A program made the position numbers and the translations under genes. This document shows positions 18,106 through 35,523 of a stretch of 36,458 nucleotides of DNA, one piece after another. Each line of letters begins with the position of its first letter. Position 1 is the stretch's first letter. The DNA is from a virus, in the IMG/VR virus record IMGVR_UViG_3300039456_000011, positions 1 through 36,458 of that record, one strand, 5' to 3'. The notes under the pieces are model-generated. The model saw only the letters and a program-made list of their open reading frames with translations. It ran no database searches and was not told the origin of the DNA.

Positions 18106-18310
18106 GTGCATATTTTAGGTACACACAAAAATATATACATGCACAAAATATACATACACACCTACACCCTAAATATACATGTATATTTCGTTCCATTATA
18201 TACGTATATAATGGAACGAAATATACATGTATATTTTGGGTGTGTGTATGCTTTTGTGTGTGTTTTAAATATACATGCTTGCGTTGTGTGTCTTTATAGT
18301 GTACTTTTGT
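18106..18310. other. Extended protelomerase region with repeated AAATATACATG motifs
   Basis: This A/T-rich, non-coding stretch surrounds the telomere palindrome. AAATATACAT recurs at about 18147, 18171, 18219 and 18267, with a near copy at 18131. Outer segments rich in ACACAC on the left face TGTGTG on the right, so the inverted repeat continues imperfectly beyond the central 78 bp. The N15 tos site likewise has flanking inverted repeats outside telRL. Confidence 0.72.
18165..18242. other. Telomere resolution site (telRL-like palindrome)
   Basis: Two 39-base arms, 18165-18203 and 18204-18242, are perfect reverse complements except for one T-T pair (18170/18237). The centre reads CCATTATA (18193-18200), TACGTA, TATAATGG (18207-18214). 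N15 telRL has the same CCATTATA and TATAATGG blocks around a CGCGCG centre. The protelomerase gene starts 101 bases away. Cutting here and joining strands would give a linear plasmid with hairpin ends. Confidence 0.93.
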
Positions 18311-18342: not shown

Positions 18343-19926
18343 ATGGAAAATCAGAAAAAACGCGCAAGCCAAGGCACTGTCGACCTTGCCGCTGTTATCA
18401 GTGACACGATTGACCGTATTAAAAAAATAGATGGCCACGCTGATTGGGATCAGTCAGAAAAGACACGTAGGCATAAGGTTTTAGCGGAATCAGTTAAAAA
18501 CAAACTGCACGAAGATGGCCGCCGAAGCGATGAAAACAAGGTTTCGCTGGCAACCTATCGCCGTTATTTGACTGACGTTAGAAAAGCGATTACCGCCGAA
18601 AACATGCACCACCATAACCTAGAAAAAAAGTTGGATGTATTGGCGCGGCGGTATCCAAAACACAGCGCTGAATTGCTGGCTATAAAGCGCGGCAACATTA
18701 GCGACACGCGACTGGCACACAAGGCGGCGCTTGAGTCTCTAATCGACGAATCAGAGGCTTACAGTGACTTGAAAGCGATCATTATTGATCATGAAATCAT
18801 GCGTCACTTGTCTATGGCGTCCGCGCAAAAAACGAAACTATCAAACCAGCAGCAAGCGGCCCTTGAAGAAAAGAAACATAACGCTGTCGAAATTGACAAA
18901 GACTGGCTACTGGTTACGACAGAAAGCCTTTTAAAGCCTGATACAGACAGCCAGATCAGCTTTGCGCGCTTAGCGCTTGGTATCGCGTTTGCTACTGGTC
19001 GCCGTGCGATTGAAGTGCTTTATCAGGGCAACTTTGAAGCGGCTGGAAAATATGAGCTCACATTTTCAGGCTTTGCTAAAAAGCGCGGCGGTGCTGATTA
19101 CAGCAACAAAGCGCGAATTTATACCATCGTACCCGCCTCTGACGTGTTAGCCGCGGTTGAACTGCTACGCCAACAGCCAGAAATTGAAGCTATGCGTAAC
19201 GACTTTGGAAGCCTCCCAGAAGGTGAGCGTAACCGCGCGGTTAACCATCGCGCGGCGGCAAACCTAAACAACACCGCAAAACGCGTTTTTGGTGATGAAA
19301 CCCGCGTATTTCGCGACAGCCGCGCCGTATGGGCAAGGTTCGTTTTTGAAGAACATTTTCGCAAAGACCCGCGCTGGAAAAAATTAGACGAAGACGTGTT
19401 CTGGCACCAGCAACTAGGGCACGAAGACCTAGACACCCAGCAAGCGTACAAGCAATTTAAACTAATCGAAGTCGAGCGCGGAGGCGATCAAGACCGCCTT
19501 TCTGCAGTCAAAGCACTGGCCAGAAACCCAGAAGTTATGAAGCGTGGTGCATTACAAAAAATAAACGCCTGGGCGGTTTCAGTGCTCGAAAACGACCCTA
19601 CGGACAAAATCACACAGCATCGAATTATCAGCGAGCTAGGATCTGGCCGGGGCGTGATTAAAGACTGGCTAACACTTGCTGAAGATGCGTTAAACCTTGA
19701 TCCGGTGGCAAATCGCACCAAAAAACACGAAGAAAAGCCGCAAAGCAAAGAAGAAAGCAAACCAGCGGCCCAAATGGATAAACCGCGCATCCGCGCTACT
19801 AAAGACGGCGGCTGGTGGTTGGTGTCTATCGAGATTGGCGGCGCTGAATATGAATACACATACCACGCCGACGAATATGGCCGTGGTGATGCTATGGCCG
19901 CCGCATGGGCTGAGCACGCTGAATAA
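18343..19926 (+). CDS. telN: Protelomerase (telomere resolvase)
   Basis: Enzyme of 527 residues that cuts the replicated telomere palindrome and seals hairpin ends by a tyrosine-recombinase mechanism. Direct matches to what I recall of N15 TelN include TGRRAIEVLYQGNF with GKYELTFSGFAKKR, RVFRDSRAVWAR, DPRWKKLDEDVF and LGHEDLDTQQAYKQFKL. The expected catalytic set is present: Arg 220/221, Lys 246/247, Arg 327, His 360 and Tyr 369. A C-terminal domain (GGWWLVSIEIGGAEYEY) also has a TelN counterpart. It is shorter than TelN (631), mainly in the N-terminal part and the acidic linker. Start ATG with GAGGG upstream. It lies directly beside its likely target at 18165-18242. Confidence 0.97.
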   Translation: MENQKKRASQGTVDLAAVISDTIDRIKKIDGHADWDQSEKTRRHKVLAESVKNKLHEDGRRSDENKVSLATYRRYLTDVRKAITAENMHHHNLEKKLDVLARRYPKHSAELLAIKRGNISDTRLAHKAALESLIDESEAYSDLKAIIIDHEIMRHLSMASAQKTKLSNQQQAALEEKKHNAVEIDKDWLLVTTESLLKPDTDSQISFARLALGIAFATGRRAIEVLYQGNFEAAGKYELTFSGFAKKRGGADYSNKARIYTIVPASDVLAAVELLRQQPEIEAMRNDFGSLPEGERNRAVNHRAAANLNNTAKRVFGDETRVFRDSRAVWARFVFEEHFRKDPRWKKLDEDVFWHQQLGHEDLDTQQAYKQFKLIEVERGGDQDRLSAVKALARNPEVMKRGALQKINAWAVSVLENDPTDKITQHRIISELGSGRGVIKDWLTLAEDALNLDPVANRTKKHEEKPQSKEESKPAAQMDKPRIRATKDGGWWLVSIEIGGAEYEYTYHADEYGRGDAMAAAWAEHAE

Positions 19927-22388: not shown

Positions 22389-22532
22389 TTACCAAGATAA
22401 CTTTTTGGCGCGCTCTAATATTCGTGCTTGGGCTTCGGCCAATGAAGCCTCTAAAGCCGCTTGCCTTCTGGCTTCGGTCCATTCCATCCACTCCGGGGAA
22501 CCTGGCAACGGGAATTTAATCACGTCAGCCAT
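22389..22532 (-). CDS. Small protein coupled to repA (47 residues)
   Basis: Begins MADVIKFPLPGSPEWMEW and continues as one charged helix (EARRQAALEASLAEAQARILERAK). The ATG overlaps the repA stop by one base (TAATG), so it is translated with RepA. A longer start inside repA is possible but unneeded. Confidence 0.66.
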   Translation of the reverse strand: MADVIKFPLPGSPEWMEWTEARRQAALEASLAEAQARILERAKKLSW

Positions 22533-25500
22533 TACGCCAGCCCCAATGTCATTAAGTTGGCCGGGATGATCTTGCCAAAGCGCTGATCTTTGCATTCGGG
22601 ATCGAACCAGCCACGCGCTAAGCGCATCAAGTTCGGAATAGTCAGCGCCCCGAGCCGGTCGAGCCGGTCCAGCGGTCGTTCAGCGGGTATAAACTGGTCA
22701 CCTGTCGGCTTTTTTAACCATTCGATTACTGATAATAAAATATCTTTTTGCGGGGGGGAGATTTTACTATTGGTTCTTATATTGTGTTCAATAATTTCTC
22801 CCCCCTCGCTGTAACCCGCATGGTTACTGGTTTCGATGCGTGATATTGGTAGTATTGAGCTGCTCTCTGGCTGGCTATTTGGTAGGTCTTGCGTGGCTAA
22901 AAACTCGCTAACGGCGACGCTGTCGTCGTGTAAATCGGCGGTGGTGTCTTGCTGTAGTGCGTTTTCACCAATCGCGGCGCGCGCCGCGCAATAATCGTTT
23001 AATTCAGCGAATTTTTCAGGGTGAAGTCGGTAAAATTGAACGCCGTTTAATTTTTTCGCGTTAATGATGGGTACAAATCGTTCTAACAGGCCTTTGACGA
23101 ATCGTGTGGCGCATGTTGGTACCGCATTAACTTGCGGTCCAATGCGTAGCGCGTTGTATTCGTCGATAGCGGCTTGCGAGCTTGTGAGCATTGCGACAAC
23201 GTCGCGCGCTTGCATAACGCTGTACTCACCCTCTCCTGTTAACGTATCCAGCCCCAGTGTCTCGAAAACCCGGTTTAGGATCTGCCAGCGCGCCATAATT
23301 AACCGGCGCTGTGTTAATACCACGCCCTTTTCGTTTTCCCAGTTTTCGACCTTGCTGACTTGCTCAGCAGTGCCTCGCAGCGTTTCAAGTCGTCTAATTT
23401 TGGTTAGTCCGCGACTGTCTAAAAATTCGATAGTGTCGTCAGTGACATCGACGCCTAAATGTTTTTCGATTTCATAGCGCGCAAGCTGCGCAATTTGTAC
23501 CGGCGTTAATAGCTCCTCTTTTTTGAGTTGCTTGTATTCGTCTTCAGTGGGTGTGGTCGCCGCGTGAATACGATCATGACGCGCGTTTTTAACGATGTCG
23601 CGGTCGTTGTTCATTTGCTCCGCGCCCATTTCTGCGGTGAGGTCGTCAGTGGCGACGGCGTTAATTTTCCAGCCGTCTGCAGCCATCAGCATTAAAGTGT
23701 GGCTTATGTACTCGCTACGTGACCGCGCTTGTGCTGTTACCACGTCCAGATACATATCATCAAAATTCGTGGTACGAATTGTCACGCCGTCGTCAGTGGC
23801 CTGCCAGTTTAATGTCTGACGGCTTGATTCATACGCCGCTAATAAACCGCGTAACAGAGCATCACGATCGGTCTGGTGTGTGTCGTGACTTGGTTGCATA
23901 CCTAATAAAACCGATTTAGCGCCCCGGTCGCGTCGTATCATTTGCATGATATCGGAGGGCACAACAACGCCGTGGAAAAGCGCAAAATGGCAGTCAAACG
24001 ACGCCGCCGCCGCGCGTATACTCACACCCGATGAAATCACCGGGCTATAAATCAACACGTCGACATCAGCCGCAATGCGGTTAGGATCGTCAGAAAATTC
24101 GACGGCGGCTTTATCGCCTTTGGTTTCAGCCGTGATGCACAAAACGCGCGCCTCTGGCCAAGCGGCTTGCACACCTTCGGCAACCATGTGCGCTTTTTTG
24201 ATTGAGTCAGTAGCTACTAAAATACGGTCAGTTTTCTTTTTTGCTGTATCGACAATTTGTTGATAAACAAACGCGACGTTATCACAGTAATTAACCGTCA
24301 AATCTGGCGCCGGTGAGTCAATTTCAATAACGTGTATTGGCTCACCTGGTCGCGCCTGATTTAAAAACGTGATTAAAGAATCGTTGGCGTCCGCGTCAGC
24401 CAGTAACACTTTTTCAGCGGCGCGCGCCGCTGCCACCAGTTTGTTATAGGCTTTTACGGGTGCATGGATAGCGTCTTGCCCTGCCATAACGTGCCGTAAC
24501 ACTTGCGTTGCTTCGTCTACACATAGCAACTCGGCTTGTTTCCAGTACCAGTCAAACTCCTGTCTGACCACGGAGTTTACGCACGTCACCATGCGCGTAT
24601 TCCATGACACGTTTACGGCGTCTAACTCACGATAATGCTTTAGGTCCAGCTCGTTAGACATTTGATTAGCCAACGAAACCCGGTGAACAATCATACCCGC
24701 ACCGCCGTGAGCTTCGCGCATGAGTGGCCCCATTACGCGTTCTGTTTTGCCGGTACCGTGTTTGGCTTTTAAAATGATCGATCCTTTTAAGCTGCGCACT
24801 AGGTCCAGCACAGTACCCGGAATAACGGCGTAACCTTCTTCTGTGATTTCTGCATTAACTTTAATGTGTTGCACGTTATCACCCGCTAGGGCGTCATCAC
24901 TAAAATTCTTAGTCGCTGCGGCCATCGCAAACCGCTGCTTCACGCACCAGCTCAAAAAGCCCTTGATCGTCGCTAACTGTTTCGCGTTGGCGCTGGCTTG
25001 TTTGGGTATTGATTTCAATATCTCACGCGCCACGGCTTGGCGGTTGTATTCGTGCGGTACCAAAGCTGCCCCAGCCGAAGCCGCGCGCTTGGCGGCTTTC
25101 ATAAAGCCGTTTTCGCCAGTCAGTTTTAATAGCTGCAACTTGTTTAAAAACATGTTTTTTTCAGGCGCAAGGCGCAAATCACGCGCGGTTAGCTGCTTAG
25201 CAACGACGCGCAAACCGCCCAACATTTCGAGGTCGTTGTAATCTGTCGGATAGTCGTTAATGCTGAATTCATCAAAGCATGGCGCACTGGCTTTAACTTT
25301 TTTGGCGGTTAATACGCCAGCGAGTTCGAACGCTGCAATAACACCCGCGTTGCCCTTACCTTCTAAAAATTTGAAATGGTCGTTATCCGCGCGAATGACG
25401 TGCTTTTTACTGTCGTATAAATACGCGTAATGTTTAACGCCACGGGTAAGCCCGTTTTTATCAAAACACACCACCACGGCGATATTTTTGCGGCCCGCTA

Positions 25501-26374
25501 ATACGTGGGCTTTATACACACTTGACCCAGTAGCGAAACCCTCGACATAGTCGAGCTGGTCAGCGCTGTGAATGTCACCGATCACGATATGCGCTTGCGA
25601 CATATCAGAGCCGCGCGCGTGGGCTTTACTACCGTCCGGGTAGATACGTTGCTGGCCACAATACGCACCCGCAAAATTGATCATGGGAATGGCTAACCAA
25701 CCGCGCCAGCGTTTACGAAACTTGGTTTCCCCGCCTTTATAAAATTCTTTACCTGCAACCAAACGCGGCCCCATATCGCCACACGCCGCGATCACTTCAG
25801 CCGTGATGCCTTTCTTGCTTGCGTAGGGACATTTTGCAACCTGGGCGGCGTTAGTAATGCCGTGTTCGTATCGAGTTTGGTAGATTTTGCGGCGTTGCGC
25901 GGTGTGCTTTTTTAAACGTCGTTCTTCACGCGCATTTTTTTCGGCCTGCAGTTCGCGTACTTTCTCTTTGCGTAAACGAGCCGTGCGTATTTTATCGCGC
26001 TCGACATCGTTTAACAGCCGCCCGCCTTCGCGCTCGAATAATTCCGTCAGGGCTTCGTAGCCGTGCCAAAACACAGTCGACCCACCGTTGGCGTGGGTAG
26101 TAAATTGAATGATTGGGTAACGTATGCCGTTACGAGCTTCACGCCAGTTTAATTCCATCAAGTGGCGTTGCTTGCGGTCTGTTACCGCGATGTCTTTGTT
26201 TTTAAGTAAACGCCCGGGGGATAATTTAGCCGTGTTCGACTTATACCAGTCGATATCAACTTCAGCCGCCGTGGCGTTAATATCGCTTGAAAACTCGTTT
26301 AACCAGTCTTCATGGTGTGCGTTGTCACCGAAACGATCTTGCCAAAACGTCTTTAAGCCTGTGTGTTTGTCCAT
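22532..26374 (-). CDS. repA: RepA: multidomain plasmid replication protein (primase-helicase)
   Basis: Protein of 1280 residues, near the 1324 of N15 RepA, which initiates and drives replication of the linear plasmid. Residues 120-165 are highly charged. About 180-360 holds a zinc/primase-like segment (CPYASKKGI) and a toprim domain (YVEGFATGSS with E278, VVVCFDKNG, IRADNDH with D330/D332). About 500-900 is a superfamily 2-type helicase: Walker A KAKHGTGKT (537-543 region), LLCVDEAT (620-623), VLLADADAN, VLIYSPVISSGVSI and QMIRRDRGAKSV. The tail carries no motif I know. GGAAG precedes the ATG, and an octad array lies 17 bases upstream. In N15 the origin is within repA; I cannot place one here. 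Confidence 0.92.
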   Translation of the reverse strand: MDKHTGLKTFWQDRFGDNAHHEDWLNEFSSDINATAAEVDIDWYKSNTAKLSPGRLLKNKDIAVTDRKQRHLMELNWREARNGIRYPIIQFTTHANGGSTVFWHGYEALTELFEREGGRLLNDVERDKIRTARLRKEKVRELQAEKNAREERRLKKHTAQRRKIYQTRYEHGITNAAQVAKCPYASKKGITAEVIAACGDMGPRLVAGKEFYKGGETKFRKRWRGWLAIPMINFAGAYCGQQRIYPDGSKAHARGSDMSQAHIVIGDIHSADQLDYVEGFATGSSVYKAHVLAGRKNIAVVVCFDKNGLTRGVKHYAYLYDSKKHVIRADNDHFKFLEGKGNAGVIAAFELAGVLTAKKVKASAPCFDEFSINDYPTDYNDLEMLGGLRVVAKQLTARDLRLAPEKNMFLNKLQLLKLTGENGFMKAAKRAASAGAALVPHEYNRQAVAREILKSIPKQASANAKQLATIKGFLSWCVKQRFAMAAATKNFSDDALAGDNVQHIKVNAEITEEGYAVIPGTVLDLVRSLKGSIILKAKHGTGKTERVMGPLMREAHGGAGMIVHRVSLANQMSNELDLKHYRELDAVNVSWNTRMVTCVNSVVRQEFDWYWKQAELLCVDEATQVLRHVMAGQDAIHAPVKAYNKLVAAARAAEKVLLADADANDSLITFLNQARPGEPIHVIEIDSPAPDLTVNYCDNVAFVYQQIVDTAKKKTDRILVATDSIKKAHMVAEGVQAAWPEARVLCITAETKGDKAAVEFSDDPNRIAADVDVLIYSPVISSGVSIRAAAASFDCHFALFHGVVVPSDIMQMIRRDRGAKSVLLGMQPSHDTHQTDRDALLRGLLAAYESSRQTLNWQATDDGVTIRTTNFDDMYLDVVTAQARSRSEYISHTLMLMAADGWKINAVATDDLTAEMGAEQMNNDRDIVKNARHDRIHAATTPTEDEYKQLKKEELLTPVQIAQLARYEIEKHLGVDVTDDTIEFLDSRGLTKIRRLETLRGTAEQVSKVENWENEKGVVLTQRRLIMARWQILNRVFETLGLDTLTGEGEYSVMQARDVVAMLTSSQAAIDEYNALRIGPQVNAVPTCATRFVKGLLERFVPIINAKKLNGVQFYRLHPEKFAELNDYCAARAAIGENALQQDTTADLHDDSVAVSEFLATQDLPNSQPESSSILPISRIETSNHAGYSEGGEIIEHNIRTNSKISPPQKDILLSVIEWLKKPTGDQFIPAERPLDRLDRLGALTIPNLMRLARGWFDPECKDQRFGKIIPANLMTLGLA

Positions 26375-26390: not shown

Positions 26391-26426
26391 ACGTAAAACC
26401 GGAAAACCGGAAAACCGGAAAACCGT
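26391..26426. repeat. Octad-box array 2, upstream of repA
   Basis: Boxes ACGT (26391), CCGG (26399, 26407, 26415) and CCGT (26423), each followed by four A/T bases. On the minus strand it stands just before the repA ribosome site, so binding there could limit RepA synthesis. Confidence 0.88.
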
Positions 26427-26670: not shown

Positions 26671-27324
26671 TTATAAGCTATCGTCAGAAAACCAGATAAA
26701 TCCTGTAACTAAACCAAGAATCTGATCTTTACTATTGAGCGCTTCGGGTGGGTACATTCGATTTAGATAGGTAATCCAGTGGTGACGACCATCAAATTCA
26801 TAACGTCCTAAAATCATGATTCCATCAACATTAAACAAACAATCGTCACCGGGTTTTGCATCTTTAACGGGGCTAATAATAGCCACGCCGTTTCTGTAGT
26901 AGCTATACCCGCCCCGATCACTCTCCATTGTTATCATATCAATATGATAGCCATACGACCCAGTAGCACACCGCGCCGGTATGGTTACTGATTTGCCGGT
27001 TTTCTGGTTGTTCATATCGACAACATCAACAGATCTATTTTGAGGTGCAGCAATATAATCTTTGCCACTTTCCCTTACGCCAGTCTGAAGTTCAGCCAGA
27101 TCCCCGGATTTCGCTTCTTTTATTACGTCAGAGGCTTCAACAGATAAGACGTCGCATATTTCTTCAAAAATCGCCCACGAAAAATTAACCGGAACTCTTT
27201 CGAGTTTCGATAAATAAGCGGCTGAAAGCCTGTAATCAGTGGCCGCGCATAGGTCTTCTTGAGTCATTCGCAAAGACAACCGCAAGCGCCTAATGACCTT
27301 TCCTACAAATGGGGTGTTTTTCAT
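26671..27324 (-). CDS. CI-like prophage repressor, HTH plus degenerate S24-like domain
   Basis: Protein of 217 residues. Residues about 8-65 form an XRE HTH (GKVIRRLRLSLRMTQEDLCAAT, LSAAYLSKLERV). The C-terminal half (YSYYRNGVAIISPVKDAKPGDDCLFNVDGIMILGRYEF, ILGLVTGF) has the strand pattern of LexA/CI dimerisation domains. I cannot find the usual Ser in an SMxP setting or the partner Lys. It faces the right-arm genes across a 145-base control region and is the likely lysogeny repressor, in the place of N15 cB. Confidence 0.84.
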   Translation of the reverse strand: MKNTPFVGKVIRRLRLSLRMTQEDLCAATDYRLSAAYLSKLERVPVNFSWAIFEEICDVLSVEASDVIKEAKSGDLAELQTGVRESGKDYIAAPQNRSVDVVDMNNQKTGKSVTIPARCATGSYGYHIDMITMESDRGGYSYYRNGVAIISPVKDAKPGDDCLFNVDGIMILGRYEFDGRHHWITYLNRMYPPEALNSKDQILGLVTGFIWFSDDSL

Positions 27325-27399: not shown

Positions 27400-27469
27400 T
27401 GTAGGTGTGAAAACAACCGCATCGCCATTATTGGGTTTTGGCGTCGGACAATACACGATAGGGGAATAT

Positions 27470-28051
27470 ATGATGGACCACTCTCATAGTCTGTCGCTCG
27501 ATAGTATCTTGCTGTCAGCAACAAAAGATTACTTAGCGAATTCAGCAGATACACAGCGCACCTTTGCCGAAAAACGCTTATTGCCACAAATTCAGACGCA
27601 TGGCGTACCGGGGCCAAAACCACCGGGCGATTCTTCCAGCGCTGACGAATACACCGCTCGCATTAACAACATGCAAAACACATACAGCCGCATCATGAAC
27701 GGTACCAGCTTAATACCGTTAGCGTGGCTTTGGCCGTGGGTTGCCGCTTTGCCTGATTCGTATCGCTCCCGCGTTGTTAATCAGATCCGCGCCCAATTAC
27801 CAGAAACCGTGCCATCGCTGGCCACTGGTGCCAGCTCAATCGCCGATATGGGCCGTTTAGTCACTGAAGCAGGCGAAGCCATTACCGCTATCGCAAAAAT
27901 CGCTTCTGACGGCGTTTACAACAGCGCCGACGACCCAGTCGCCGCCAAAAAAGCACTAGAAGAAATCTACGATTTACGCGATTACGCCCAAGCCGAAGCC
28001 GCCGCGATTGAATCCGGTACTGGTTTAAGCGTATCGCGCACTAACCGCTAA
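27470..28051 (+). CDS. First right-arm early gene, possible regulator, unknown family
   Basis: Protein of 193 residues from the ATG at 27470, which has AGGGGA four to five bases upstream; an upstream GTG at 27407 lacks one. It has SLDSILLSATKDYLA at the start, a hydrophobic stretch IPLAWLWPWVAALP, and a C-terminal helical part (LVTEAGEAITAIAKIASDG, EEIYDLRDYAQAEAAAI) that faintly recalls the C-terminus of CII-type (CP76) phage regulators. I would not assign that family. It is the first gene behind the repressed promoter. Confidence 0.66.
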   Translation: MMDHSHSLSLDSILLSATKDYLANSADTQRTFAEKRLLPQIQTHGVPGPKPPGDSSSADEYTARINNMQNTYSRIMNGTSLIPLAWLWPWVAALPDSYRSRVVNQIRAQLPETVPSLATGASSIADMGRLVTEAGEAITAIAKIASDGVYNSADDPVAAKKALEEIYDLRDYAQAEAAAIESGTGLSVSRTNR

Positions 28052-28064
28052 TTTAGGGGGCAAT

Positions 28065-28685
28065 ATGTTGACAGAAGCCGGTAAAAACAATCTGAGAAGT
28101 TTTATATTTTCAGTGTTTTCAGTACATGCACCGTCTCGCAGCTTTGACTATGCCGCGATACGTGTGCAGTCGTCCGCGCCTGTGTCTGCCCCCATGCCTG
28201 TGACCATGTCACAACTCGAAAACAGGTCATACGTTGCCGCCATTCGCCAGCTATCAACCCCCGCCGCCGCGTGGGTACGTTGGGCGTATGCGAGCCGACA
28301 CCCAGACGCCGCCAATCACGATATGGAAATCGTCGCGCGGAATCTATGGGATGACTACAGCAGCACCCTGCACAGCACCACCGAAGAACAGCGCGAACGA
28401 ATTATGCGACTTGTACAGCCAGCAATGGAGCAAGTCGCTTTCGTTCAGCGTTTAGGAAAAAAGCGATATAGCCGCGCCGATTTGTACGATCTAACGGGCT
28501 GCCCTGAAAGCTCATGGCAGCGCGATATGCAACCGCATTGGAAAGCACTCCAAGACAATCTAAAAAACCAAGACAACGCCGCCTTACGCCGCCTAAGCCT
28601 GATTTTTGACATTGTCGATCAACGTAAAGCGCTTGGGAGCGCTAACGAAATTGCCGCAGATGCACAAATGAGCATTGCGGTTTAA
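28065..28685 (+). CDS. Right-arm early gene, unknown, possible antiterminator
   Basis: Protein of 206 residues with AGGGGG five bases before the ATG. It contains TPAAAWVRWAYASRHPDAANHD and ARNLWDDYSS, then KKRYSRADLYDLTGCPESSWQRD, which could be a helix-turn-helix. The Trp/Arg-rich WVRWAY segment is reminiscent of late antiterminators, and the genome otherwise lacks an obvious Q, but this is weak. It runs in step with the gene before it (13-base gap). Confidence 0.6.
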   Translation: MLTEAGKNNLRSFIFSVFSVHAPSRSFDYAAIRVQSSAPVSAPMPVTMSQLENRSYVAAIRQLSTPAAAWVRWAYASRHPDAANHDMEIVARNLWDDYSSTLHSTTEEQRERIMRLVQPAMEQVAFVQRLGKKRYSRADLYDLTGCPESSWQRDMQPHWKALQDNLKNQDNAALRRLSLIFDIVDQRKALGSANEIAADAQMSIAV

Positions 28686-28728
28686 CGGTTTTCCGGTTTT
28701 CCGGAATTACGTAAAACCGGAACAACGG
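28685..28728. repeat. Octad-box array 3, upstream of the RdgC/FtsK-gamma gene
   Basis: Boxes ACGG (28685), CCGG (28693, 28701), ACGT (28709), CCGG (28717) and ACGG (28725) stand in perfect 8-bp register with four-base A/T-type spacers. It fills the whole gap between the two genes except the ribosome site. Confidence 0.88.
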
Positions 28729-28744: not shown

Positions 28745-30145
28745 ATGCTTTTAAAACAACTCACGTCATATCAGATCGAAATGCCTACCACGGCCACTGA
28801 CCAGCCAATCGCGCTGGTGCCAACCGAATGGCGCGATCATATCGAACAAAGCGCTCAATCCATGCGCATACGCCCGCTAACGGCGCTACAGCAAACTGGC
28901 TCAGGCTTTGAGCCGCCGTTGCATAAAATAAACAGTGAATACGTTGTGGCCGCCGATTCGTGCGGGTTGTTGTTGCTGTGTTACCGGATTGATACCAAGG
29001 CGATCAACGCCGCCGGCATTAAAGAATCGGTCGAAGCGAAGGCCAAAATCATCGAGCACGAAGAAGGCCGTCGCGTTCGCAAATTAGAGCGCGAAGCAAT
29101 ACACGACGATTTTGTGATAAAAGCCCTTCCGCACATCCAGCCCACGCCAAAACGCATTTTAATATTGCTCGACCTACGCCGGTACCGCGTTTTGATTGGC
29201 ACAAAGTCAGAAGACTTGGCGACGACATTACGCCGCTTATTAGCAGAACACATCGTGCCAGGTTACGAAGTGGAAACCGCTGACGAAAAAGAAACACGCC
29301 GCCCGCGCTTCATCGTCGATAGCAACTGCAAAGGCGACCCGCGCGAACATTACCGACAGTGGATGATTCAAGGTGTTCAAGGCCTGCAACTGCATGACGG
29401 CGCATACCTTGAAAAAGAAGCCTCAAAAAACATCATCGTGACCGGCCAAGCTAATGACGCCCAGGTTATCACCGATGCATTAGATGACGGTTACCAGCCG
29501 TTTCAGGTGTCTGTCAGTGTGATGAATACCGAAGCCGACAGCGTTATCGCTGACGTTGTGCTTGATCGTTTCGGGCAATACACGGCAATACGTATCCCCG
29601 GCCATCTTGAAATCATCAAAAGCACCCACGAAGACGAAAAAGAAGCCGCGCTGGCCGACCTACACGCGAACATGGTGCTCACAGCAGGCACGGCGCACGA
29701 CGTAGAACACGCAGTAAAAGTGGCATTTGGTGACCAGCTTGAAATCGAAGGCATATTAAAAAAAGCACTTGATATGCAGCGAACCGCAATTATTGGAACC
29801 TCTCTAATTTCTAAAGTGATGGCTACCGCGTCTTTAAATATGCCAACTGATTCAACCCAGACCATGACATACAAAGTCGGTCAAGGATCAGAGCCAATCG
29901 CCGCCCATCCTGATGTGATCGAAGTTAATGTTCCGGCTCTAGATGATGAACTTTATCAGAGTGTTCGGAGGTTCGTTGTTGAAAACCAAAAATGTTCAAT
30001 TTCCGGAATTCAGCGCAATTTCAAACTTGGTTACAACCACGCCGCGCGATTAGTTGACGAACTTGAAAGTTGGGGGGTGGTAACGCCGCCTGACAGTTAT
30101 GGACACCGAGACGTTTTAGATAAAAAACCAGAAGGCATTTCTTAA
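28745..30145 (+). CDS. RdgC-like protein fused to an FtsK gamma winged-helix domain
   Basis: Protein of 466 residues. Residues 1 to about 290 follow the plan of RdgC, a ring-shaped DNA-binding protein that limits RecA: MLLKQLTSYQI at the start, VEAKAKIIEHEEGRRVRKLERE followed by ALPHIQP (RdgC has an acidic-basic helix then LLPRAF), ILILLDLRRYRVLIGT and QGLQLHDGAYL. Residues about 400-459 (ELYQSVRRFVVENQKCSISG, GYNHAARLVDELESWGVV, HRDVL) are a clear FtsK gamma domain, the module that reads KOPS on chromosomes. No FtsK motor is present. GGGAAGAAG precedes the ATG. It precedes ssb and follows octad array 3. Confidence 0.84.
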   Translation: MLLKQLTSYQIEMPTTATDQPIALVPTEWRDHIEQSAQSMRIRPLTALQQTGSGFEPPLHKINSEYVVAADSCGLLLLCYRIDTKAINAAGIKESVEAKAKIIEHEEGRRVRKLEREAIHDDFVIKALPHIQPTPKRILILLDLRRYRVLIGTKSEDLATTLRRLLAEHIVPGYEVETADEKETRRPRFIVDSNCKGDPREHYRQWMIQGVQGLQLHDGAYLEKEASKNIIVTGQANDAQVITDALDDGYQPFQVSVSVMNTEADSVIADVVLDRFGQYTAIRIPGHLEIIKSTHEDEKEAALADLHANMVLTAGTAHDVEHAVKVAFGDQLEIEGILKKALDMQRTAIIGTSLISKVMATASLNMPTDSTQTMTYKVGQGSEPIAAHPDVIEVNVPALDDELYQSVRRFVVENQKCSISGIQRNFKLGYNHAARLVDELESWGVVTPPDSYGHRDVLDKKPEGIS

Positions 30146-30161
30146 ACGGATTAATAAAATT

Positions 30162-30213
30162 CCGGTTTTCCGGTTTTCCGGTTTTCCGGTTTTCCGGTTT
30201 TCCGGAATTACGT
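30162..30213. repeat. Octad-box array 4 (six CCGG plus one ACGT), upstream of ssb
   Basis: The longest array: CCGG at 30162, 30170, 30178, 30186, 30194 and 30202, TTTT between each, then AATT and ACGT at 30210. It sits 24 bases before the ssb start. Confidence 0.93.
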
Positions 30214-30236: not shown

Positions 30237-30830
30237 ATGGCACGTAAAAACAGAATTACTTTAATCGGTCACGTTGGCGCGGACCCAGATATTCAAACGT
30301 TTGCGTCAGGCGATAAAGCCGCGCGCATTAGTATAGCAACCGATGAAAGCTATACAGACAAGCAAAGCAATCAGAAAGTCGATGTCACCGAGTGGCACCC
30401 AATCGAGTTTCAAGCCGCACTCGCTGAACGTGTGCAAAAGTACGTAAAGAAGGGCGATCAGCTATACATTGAGGGCAAGTTGCGAACGTATAAAATCGTC
30501 ATTGGCGATAAAAACGTCACGCAACATAAAATCATCGCCACTGATGTCCAGTTTTTATCAAAACGCCGTGATTCAGACCCAGCACATGGCCAACATAATA
30601 ACGGCGGCTATCAGCCAGCGCCGGGTAATCACGGACAAGGCAATCCCCCGCAAAATCCAAACGCGCCGCAACAGGCACCACAACAAAACCAGCAATATGG
30701 CTACTGGCACAGCAACGGTGCACCGTTTAATCAACATCAAGCCGCCGCCGCAAACTATCAGCAATTACAAACATGGCCGCGCGGTACAACACCACCACAA
30801 CAAGCGTATGCGATACAGGGGGTTTACTAA
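30237..30830 (+). CDS. ssb: Single-stranded DNA-binding protein
   Basis: Protein of 197 residues. Residues 1-110 are the OB fold (NRITLIGHVGADPDIQTF, EWHPIEFQAALAERVQKYVKKGDQLYIEGKLRT), as in bacterial SSB. The tail is Gln/Asn/Pro-rich and ends AIQGVY, lacking the acidic DDDIPF-like tip that recruits host partners. AAAGGGG lies six bases upstream of the ATG. It is followed directly by a coupled membrane-protein gene. Confidence 0.94.
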   Translation: MARKNRITLIGHVGADPDIQTFASGDKAARISIATDESYTDKQSNQKVDVTEWHPIEFQAALAERVQKYVKKGDQLYIEGKLRTYKIVIGDKNVTQHKIIATDVQFLSKRRDSDPAHGQHNNGGYQPAPGNHGQGNPPQNPNAPQQAPQQNQQYGYWHSNGAPFNQHQAAAANYQQLQTWPRGTTPPQQAYAIQGVY

Positions 30831-31176: not shown

Positions 31177-31683
31177 ATGACCGATACAAACAACGCCATG
31201 ACAATTAAAGAAATGGCATTAAAACAACTGCTAAAGCTGCAGCCATGCACAAGCGCTGATTTACGAGAGGCTTGCAACTGGCCAGACCGTCAGCCCGCCA
31301 ACGTTCTAAGCGTGTTGCGACGTGAAGGCCTAGCGGTATTGATCGACGGTGAAAACTTCCTAACTGACGACGGCGTAAAAGCGGCAAATGGGGAAACCCC
31401 ACTAACGCGCCCCGCGCCGCCGGTAGAAATAACCCAGCGTCCAATCAGCAAAAAAGCTCAGACGGTGAAGGCCGATATTCAAAAAGCAAAGACGGCCTTA
31501 GAAAATATTAAATCCAACGAAAACCGGAAAACCGGAAAACCGGAAAGCCGGCCCCGCGAAAGTTTTGCTGGTGACTATCAATTACTTGAACGAATGATAG
31601 AAACATTCGCGAGCGCCGCCGATGATTTAAAGCGTATTAAAAACCGTCTTCAAAAACTGGACGCAACCACAGGGCAGGGCTAA
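31177..31683 (+). CDS. Probable winged-helix protein with an octad array in its coding sequence
   Basis: Protein of 168 residues from the ATG at 31177 (a GTG at 31171 overlaps the previous stop). The first 65 residues (IKEMALKQLLKLQPCTSADLREA, ANVLSVLRREGLAVLIDGENFL) look like a winged helix. A helical C-terminus follows (YQLLERMIETFASAADDLKRIKNRL). Between them the octad repeat encodes NRKTGKPESRP, a flexible basic linker. Function unknown. Confidence 0.7.
   Translation: MTDTNNAMTIKEMALKQLLKLQPCTSADLREACNWPDRQPANVLSVLRREGLAVLIDGENFLTDDGVKAANGETPLTRPAPPVEITQRPISKKAQTVKADIQKAKTALENIKSNENRKTGKPESRPRESFAGDYQLLERMIETFASAADDLKRIKNRLQKLDATTGQG
31524..31551. repeat. Octad-box array 5, inside a coding sequence
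   Basis: CCGG at 31524, 31532, 31540 and 31548 in 8-bp register with AAAA-type spacers. It has no ACGT box, unlike the intergenic arrays. Confidence 0.85.
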
Positions 31684-35487: not shown

Positions 35488-35523
35488 TCCGTTTTACGGA
35501 AAACCGGAAAACCGGAATTACGT
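35488..35523. repeat. Octad-box array 6, overlapping the terS translation start
   Basis: Boxes TCCG (35488), ACGG (35496), CCGG (35504, 35512) and ACGT (35520), with four-base spacers. The array ends three bases before the terS ATG and covers its ribosome site region. Confidence 0.88.

Follow-up and report, generated by a model that had tools for sequence, protein, structure and literature searches.

The translocase FtsK has a membrane part and a motor, and ends in a gamma domain, a winged helix with a surface for KOPS (sequence GGGNAGGG) and XerD. XafT of the satellite phage TLC-phi reportedly acts on XerD independently of FtsK. In FtsK, a linker connects gamma to the ring-shaped motor, and the reading of a single KOPS is believed to take three gamma modules (PMC5357621, available part). 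XerD contacts in the E. coli gamma domain are Q1288, R1289, R1292, I1293, G1294 and N1296, and the KOPS surface overlaps them, as described in the accessible text of PMC5052618. The Bacillus phages Sam46 and Sam112 encode a small terminase (TerS) with an FtsK gamma domain that lacks the motor, and the role of such orphan gamma domains in phages is not known, as far as the accessible part of the report goes (PMC8190038). RdgC proteins, whose rings are dimers (PMC11390915), are found in E. coli and P. aeruginosa, and phage-borne members include HrdC of P1 and the RdgC of phage vB_VpaM_MAR.

We analysed a virus record of IMG/VR of the phiHAP-1/VP882 type (hereafter the window, i.e., the whole stretch of 36,458 bases), which encodes a protein combining these elements. 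Its RdgC fold is full-length, as in the proteins of E. coli and P. aeruginosa, to which it adds a linker and a gamma domain; it is phage-borne like P1 HrdC and the vB_VpaM_MAR protein, but these two lack gamma. As in FtsK, a ring protein is followed by a linker and a C-terminal gamma winged helix with the KOPS/XerD surface, but the membrane part and the motor are missing and the ring protein is RdgC. The terminase of Sam46 and Sam112 differs in the partner and in the N-terminal position of gamma, the domain order thus being reversed (PMC8190038, accessible part). The same portable tail is present on NdpA/YejK proteins of two F116-like elements (L192, L195), with NA37 rather than RdgC as the partner. 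The fusion is real and recurrent and is undescribed in searchable papers, whereas phage orphan FtsK gamma domains are already known as a kind. No description of an RdgC-FtsK gamma fusion was found in the literature searched, which included few subscription journals, and the available portions of the PseuP_222 paper (PMC10305613) and of a paper on NdpA/ParB (PMC9927451) mention neither FtsK nor RdgC.

The gene (28745..30145, + strand) is an open reading frame of 466 amino acids with an ATG start. Residues 1-330 (28745..29734, +) form the RdgC domain, residues 331-399 (29735..29941, +) the linker and residues 400-460 (29942..30124, +) the FtsK gamma winged helix. Pfam matches cover residues 1-325 for RdgC (PF04381, E 1.7e-18, 67.4 bits, cut-off 25) and 400-458 for FtsK_gamma (PF09397, E 1.9e-21, 76 bits, cut-off 30.6), and a sequence search of the PDB retrieved FtsK gamma (E 1.7e-13) and E. 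coli RdgC (E 1.2e-6). The motor (alpha-beta) domain of FtsK/SpoIIIE translocases gave no match to the protein in Pfam or NCBIfam, and its NCBIfam FtsK match spans only profile positions 1292-1353 of 1355. An AlphaFold model of the monomer, built from an alignment of 35 window and locus sequences, has a mean pLDDT of 76.3: values are 78-98 for the majority of blocks between residues 31 and 330 (the weaker parts being 171-200 and 281-300), 87-96 in gamma (401-460) and 32-51 in the blocks of the low-confidence linker (331-400). Foldseek matched this model to the RdgC structures 2owl (E. coli, E 5e-19) and 2owy (E 3e-18) with a target TM of 0.80-0.83, and to the P. aeruginosa FtsK gamma structures 2ve8/2ve9 with a target TM up to 0.95 and an rmsd of 1.0. 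A second structure comparison aligned 289 residues of model region 1-330 to 2owy, which we take to be the P. aeruginosa RdgC (Z 23.7, rmsd 2.6), and 62 residues of region 400-461 to the KOPS-bound gamma domain 2ve9 (Z 12.4, rmsd 1.2). The domain identities are therefore firm: a full-length RdgC, a linker of about 70 residues and an FtsK gamma domain. The sequence-only reading had proposed an RdgC-like part joined to a gamma domain without its motor, and all three elements were borne out; the two outcomes named beforehand as contrary to it, a missing RdgC fold and a lost KOPS-reading surface, did not occur, the latter being kept at Q423, R424, G429 and N431.

At an E-value up to 0.01, the protein matched 263 records of the phage collection and 253 plasmid records, many of them only by way of the gamma part or of FtsK-like genes. 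We confirmed both domains in HY01, K242, pHm21, BR228a, Skulduggery, K405 and D96a, as well as on pBVIE05 and on one plasmid each of V. cortegadensis and Vogesella. The fusion is widespread, and its carriers include F116-like phages, Skulduggery and Vibrio phages of 83 kb, besides plasmids. Since the same two-domain frame is present in several other phages and plasmids, it is neither a chance combination nor a frameshift artefact. The fusions are strongly diverged, with whole-protein identities to the window of only 21-30%. A scan of viral contigs seeded by the window protein alone gave no match, and another, seeded with L024, yielded no more than six loci, all from the same group. Searching for the gamma motif yielded 19 RdgC-gamma proteins among 80 viral contigs, most of the others encoding different proteins with a gamma domain, and a scan of genome contigs returned mostly host FtsK, with RdgC-gamma at one of 80 loci (L093). 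When the scan was seeded with RdgC, gamma was located on RdgC at 17 of 55 loci, on the next gene at 2 and in neither place at 36, one of which (L224) stops short of the C-terminus; 14 further phage records with RdgC have gamma in 2 cases and lack it in 12. In 150 bacterial genomes of one phylum, 55 RdgC matches were detected in 51 genomes. Fifty-four of these frames have at most 355 amino acids, too short for both domains as the shortest fusion frame has 366, and the remaining one (392 amino acids) has no gamma, so that the fusion looks specific to phages and plasmids.

The contact motif Q423-R-N-F-K-L-G-Y-N431 (30011..30037, +) aligns with Q1288-N1296 of E. coli FtsK, and the window presents Q423, R424, K427 (R1292), L428 (I1293), G429 and N431 at the positions that contact XerD. 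In 54 host FtsK sequences, the R1289 and R1300 positions are arginine and the R1292 position is lysine, as in K427 of the window, in 54 of 54 cases. Among 30 distinct RdgC-gamma and NdpA-gamma sequences, 29 keep the R1289 equivalent, the exception being a histidine in L209; after reduction at 90% identity, R1289 is conserved in 24 of 24 phage sequences, R1300 in 22 (it is E in K242 and L010) and lysine at the R1292 position in 21, the other three having L, T or S. The host rows and a large part of the phage rows were retrieved with a motif spanning at most residues 1291-1299, so conservation within these residues is partly due to selection; R1289 and R1300 fall outside the motif. The motif-selected gamma set likewise biases residue counts, and the RdgC-seeded set is free of that bias.

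We tentatively favour, as a quite possible explanation, that gamma is a targeting tail placing the RdgC ring clamp on KOPS-like DNA, mostly that of the host, during early lytic growth. As FtsK gamma is also attached by a linker to a ring, RdgC-gamma reproduces the layout of the C-terminal part of FtsK, a passive ring standing where FtsK has its motor. The ring-forming RdgC, which binds double-stranded DNA, would carry the gamma reader on its long, probably flexible linker; the tail would bind octamers resembling KOPS, mainly in the chromosome of the host, and once bound would load or anchor the ring as a passive clamp within the early lytic programme. Such a clamp could exclude RecA-type recombination, FtsK, or both from that DNA while the phage replicates. 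That KOPS is the target, that the host chromosome is the site and that RecA or FtsK is affected are inferences. Points against targeting are that the reading of a KOPS is believed to take three gamma modules while the RdgC ring is dimeric, and that the window has H432 at the position of E. coli R1297, where 54 of 54 host FtsK, chosen with R or H permitted there, have arginine.

Because one surface serves both (PMC5052618, in the part available), the sequence cannot tell KOPS binding from XerD contact, and the main rival, rather unlikely in our estimate yet serious as the XerD contacts are intact, is a control of Xer recombination. Gamma would here contact host XerD and either switch on XerCD or sequester XerD, with RdgC binding DNA, at dif or at a phage resolution site. 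According to the accessible text of PMC5052618, a nine-residue gamma peptide fused to XerC suffices for XerCD activation at dif, and changing R1297, which corresponds to H432 of the window, served as a control and left activity at the wild-type level; both facts suit this rival. It is weakened by the search for dif: a pattern allowing up to 3 mismatches in 20 fixed bases found a site in six of six host genomes (0-1 mismatch) but none in 47 phage and plasmid records, the window included. The substitutions at the R1292 position in three of the 24 reduced sequences and the histidine of L209 at R1289 also count against it, and a linear hairpin plasmid would present no obvious dimer problem for Xer to solve.

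KOPS-like sites on the linear plasmid had been suggested as a target by the sequence-only reading, but the window has 3 KOPS for 1.7 expected, a number reached in 14 of 60 simulations, hence no enrichment; 2 lie on the + and 1 on the - strand, too few for an orientation count along the arms. Two of the three, at 31672 and 32821, have the 12-base string GGGCAGGGCTAA in common. We then turned to the KOPS of 48 records, leaving out pHm21 (W03), whose 1 and 45 sites include 36 in a single microsatellite, and G002, a 6.5-kb fragment without any site. The 21 elements with RdgC-gamma or NdpA-gamma contain 136 KOPS vs 82 occurrences of a reversed-pattern control, and the 17 elements with RdgC lacking gamma contain 108 vs 94 (Fisher p 0.07 between the two sets); the numbers are 34 vs 29 in six elements with other gamma proteins and 6 vs 2 in two telomere phages without rdgC. 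Strand bias did not differ between gamma-bearing and gamma-less RdgC elements (0.79 vs 0.78). An enrichment of KOPS on the gamma-bearing phages was thus set aside, their counts being not clearly above those of the gamma-less RdgC phages. Together with the absence of dif from these records, the lack of a clear KOPS enrichment points away from a site on the phage and rather in the direction of the host, its chromosome or one of its proteins.

The microsatellite of pHm21, a protelomerase plasmid encoding RdgC-gamma, is a long (GCCCCT)n/(GCCCTT)n repeat outside annotated genes (L009:14267-14422 and L245:1-120); its 36 overlapping KOPS all lie on one strand, and a chance or assembly effect is possible.

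Less probable than Xer control is that the winged helix was kept to read a sequence of the phage itself, an operator serving regulation or replication. Glutamate at the R1300 position of K242 and L010, H432 of the window and its atypical FKLGYNH motif would agree with this, but the recognition segment is nearly identical to that of host FtsK. Dispersed arrays of the octamer AAAACCGG/CCGGTTTT adjoin the window gene and could be seen as such an operator. They are located at 26395-26425, 28678-28704, 30160-30205, 31519-31551 and 35497-35517, two of them flanking rdgC-gamma, and the window has 21 copies, singles included. Against this, phiHAP-1, with no annotated rdgC, has period-8 arrays of another sequence, and HY01 and K242 have the fusion without period-8 arrays, so that we judged the octamers unlikely to be the target of gamma. 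As period-8 arrays also occur in phiHAP-1, they are probably centromere or iteron repeats.

By its genes the window belongs to the phiHAP-1/VP882 type. A protelomerase (18343..19926, +) is 41.7-45.5% identical to those of phiHAP-1 and VP882, and directly upstream of its gene a large palindrome (18163-18245, without strand; arms of 41 bases, 3 mismatches) is the probable telomere resolution site. A ParA gene is present, as well as a CyRepA1-type replication protein (22532..26374, -; NF042913, E 1.6e-87) and a CI-like repressor (26671..27324, -; phrog_3, E 5e-6). The early genes then run rightward: a CII-like activator (27407..28051, +; phrog_4834, E 2.6e-36), a Q-like antiterminator immediately before the fusion (28065..28685, +; phrog_304, E 8.8e-17), rdgC-gamma, and a gene for a single-strand DNA-binding protein (ssb; 30237..30830, +; phrog_44, E 5.6e-32), which begins 95 bases downstream of it. 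An ssb gene lies within 300 bases of 14 of 31 distinct gamma-bearing RdgC frames vs 12 of 51 without gamma, in counts that include truncated rows, short-flank rows and near-copies. The earlier reading had connected the fusion with the linear plasmid and with the hairpin ends and telomeres of that plasmid; this found no support. The fusion is also carried by elements without demonstrated hairpin ends (the F116-like BR228a, Skulduggery, K405, pBVIE05 and the Vogesella plasmid), no rdgC is annotated in the telomere phages VP882 and phiHAP-1, and in the VHML-type phage vB_VpaM_MAR the RdgC encoded at this place of the early region lacks gamma. We rejected a telomere-specific role because the fusion is neither confined to telomere phages nor present in all of them.

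The unexpected result of this analysis is that the tail is portable: sequence comparison of F116-like elements has shown it to be exchanged between RdgC and NdpA, the product of the adjacent gene. Three arrangements were identified: rdgC-gamma with ndpA absent (L006, L204), rdgC followed by ndpA-gamma (L192:4944-6185 and L195:749-1993; NA37, PF04245, E about 1e-90, plus C-terminal FtsK_gamma), and rdgC ahead of an ndpA that lacks gamma. In L191, L174, L212, L215 and L219, ndpA ends in a short piece resembling the end of gamma. The tails of L006 and L195, on RdgC and NdpA respectively, are homologous in DNA (82% over 148 bases, E 5e-34). Those of L192 and L195 are only 74% identical in DNA, vs 88-95% for the first 960 bases of ndpA, and the gamma domain of a Pseudomonas host FtsK matches the L192 tail at 89% protein and 87% DNA identity; these identities fit a renewed capture from host ftsK or a gene conversion. 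RdgC itself is 97-99% identical in pairs with and without the tail (L015/L191, L208/L211, L204/L174, L194/L201), so that these sister phages offer a direct comparison. Biased packaging in the F116-like phage phiC725A is tied to its attachment site in the accessible part of PMC5217972, which makes no link to FtsK.

In 29 reduced F116-like rows, RdgC-gamma and ndpA occur together in none of 10, vs 10 of 19 rows without gamma (Fisher p 0.005); when relatedness is allowed for, 4-5 independent pairs remain and the exclusion is not significant (sign test p 0.06-0.125). Taken from the sequences, this pattern looks as if the tail could stand in for a nucleoid protein, and it may also follow mechanically from ndpA deletions that create the fusion. 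YejK/NdpA interacts with gyrase and topoisomerase IV, as stated in the available text of PMC9927451. Targeting is supported by the tail having two distinct partners, the nucleoid proteins RdgC (PF04381) and NdpA/YejK (PF04245); a tail for DNA targeting fits both, and since both partners are nucleoid proteins, DNA targeting is favoured over pure XerD activation. Such hopping between neighbouring DNA-binding proteins hints at a common way in which phages aim them.

A quick tree of 70 RdgC domains, in which the window is a very long branch (4.39) of unsure placement, requires 15 changes in the presence of gamma, showing that gamma was repeatedly gained and lost on RdgC. A selectively neutral accretion, in which the tail would be a by-product of deletions beside a gamma-bearing gene and add little, is the least probable alternative: frequent gain and loss (supported branches by themselves demand at least 6 changes) and the gamma-end-like pieces left in ndpA of the five elements above would suit it, but the contact residues are conserved across fusions as diverged as these, and the fusion recurs in separate phage groups.

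Returning to the targeting tail, a wider version of it is conceivable, though we rate it rather unlikely. Phages and phage-plasmids would have repeatedly built motorless look-alikes of FtsK from RdgC or NdpA and a swappable gamma domain, sometimes renewed from host ftsK; the tail would load these proteins at host KOPS or at terminus XerD and let the phage take over or block the FtsK, Xer and recombination machinery with which chromosome segregation is completed, the microsatellite of pHm21 being a decoy or a loading array. The RdgC-gamma set is a compact testable case, with a solved module reading DNA and XerD and a partner of known ring fold, and it opens the question of whether phages read the orientation code of the host chromosome.

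Gamma domains were also observed in many other phage proteins, with unnamed partners (L018:3257-3670, L022, L025, L030, L038, L055, L069, L073 and L007); some of these sit in the middle of the protein or at the N-terminus, and weak matches to RMF and DUF4423 were detected.
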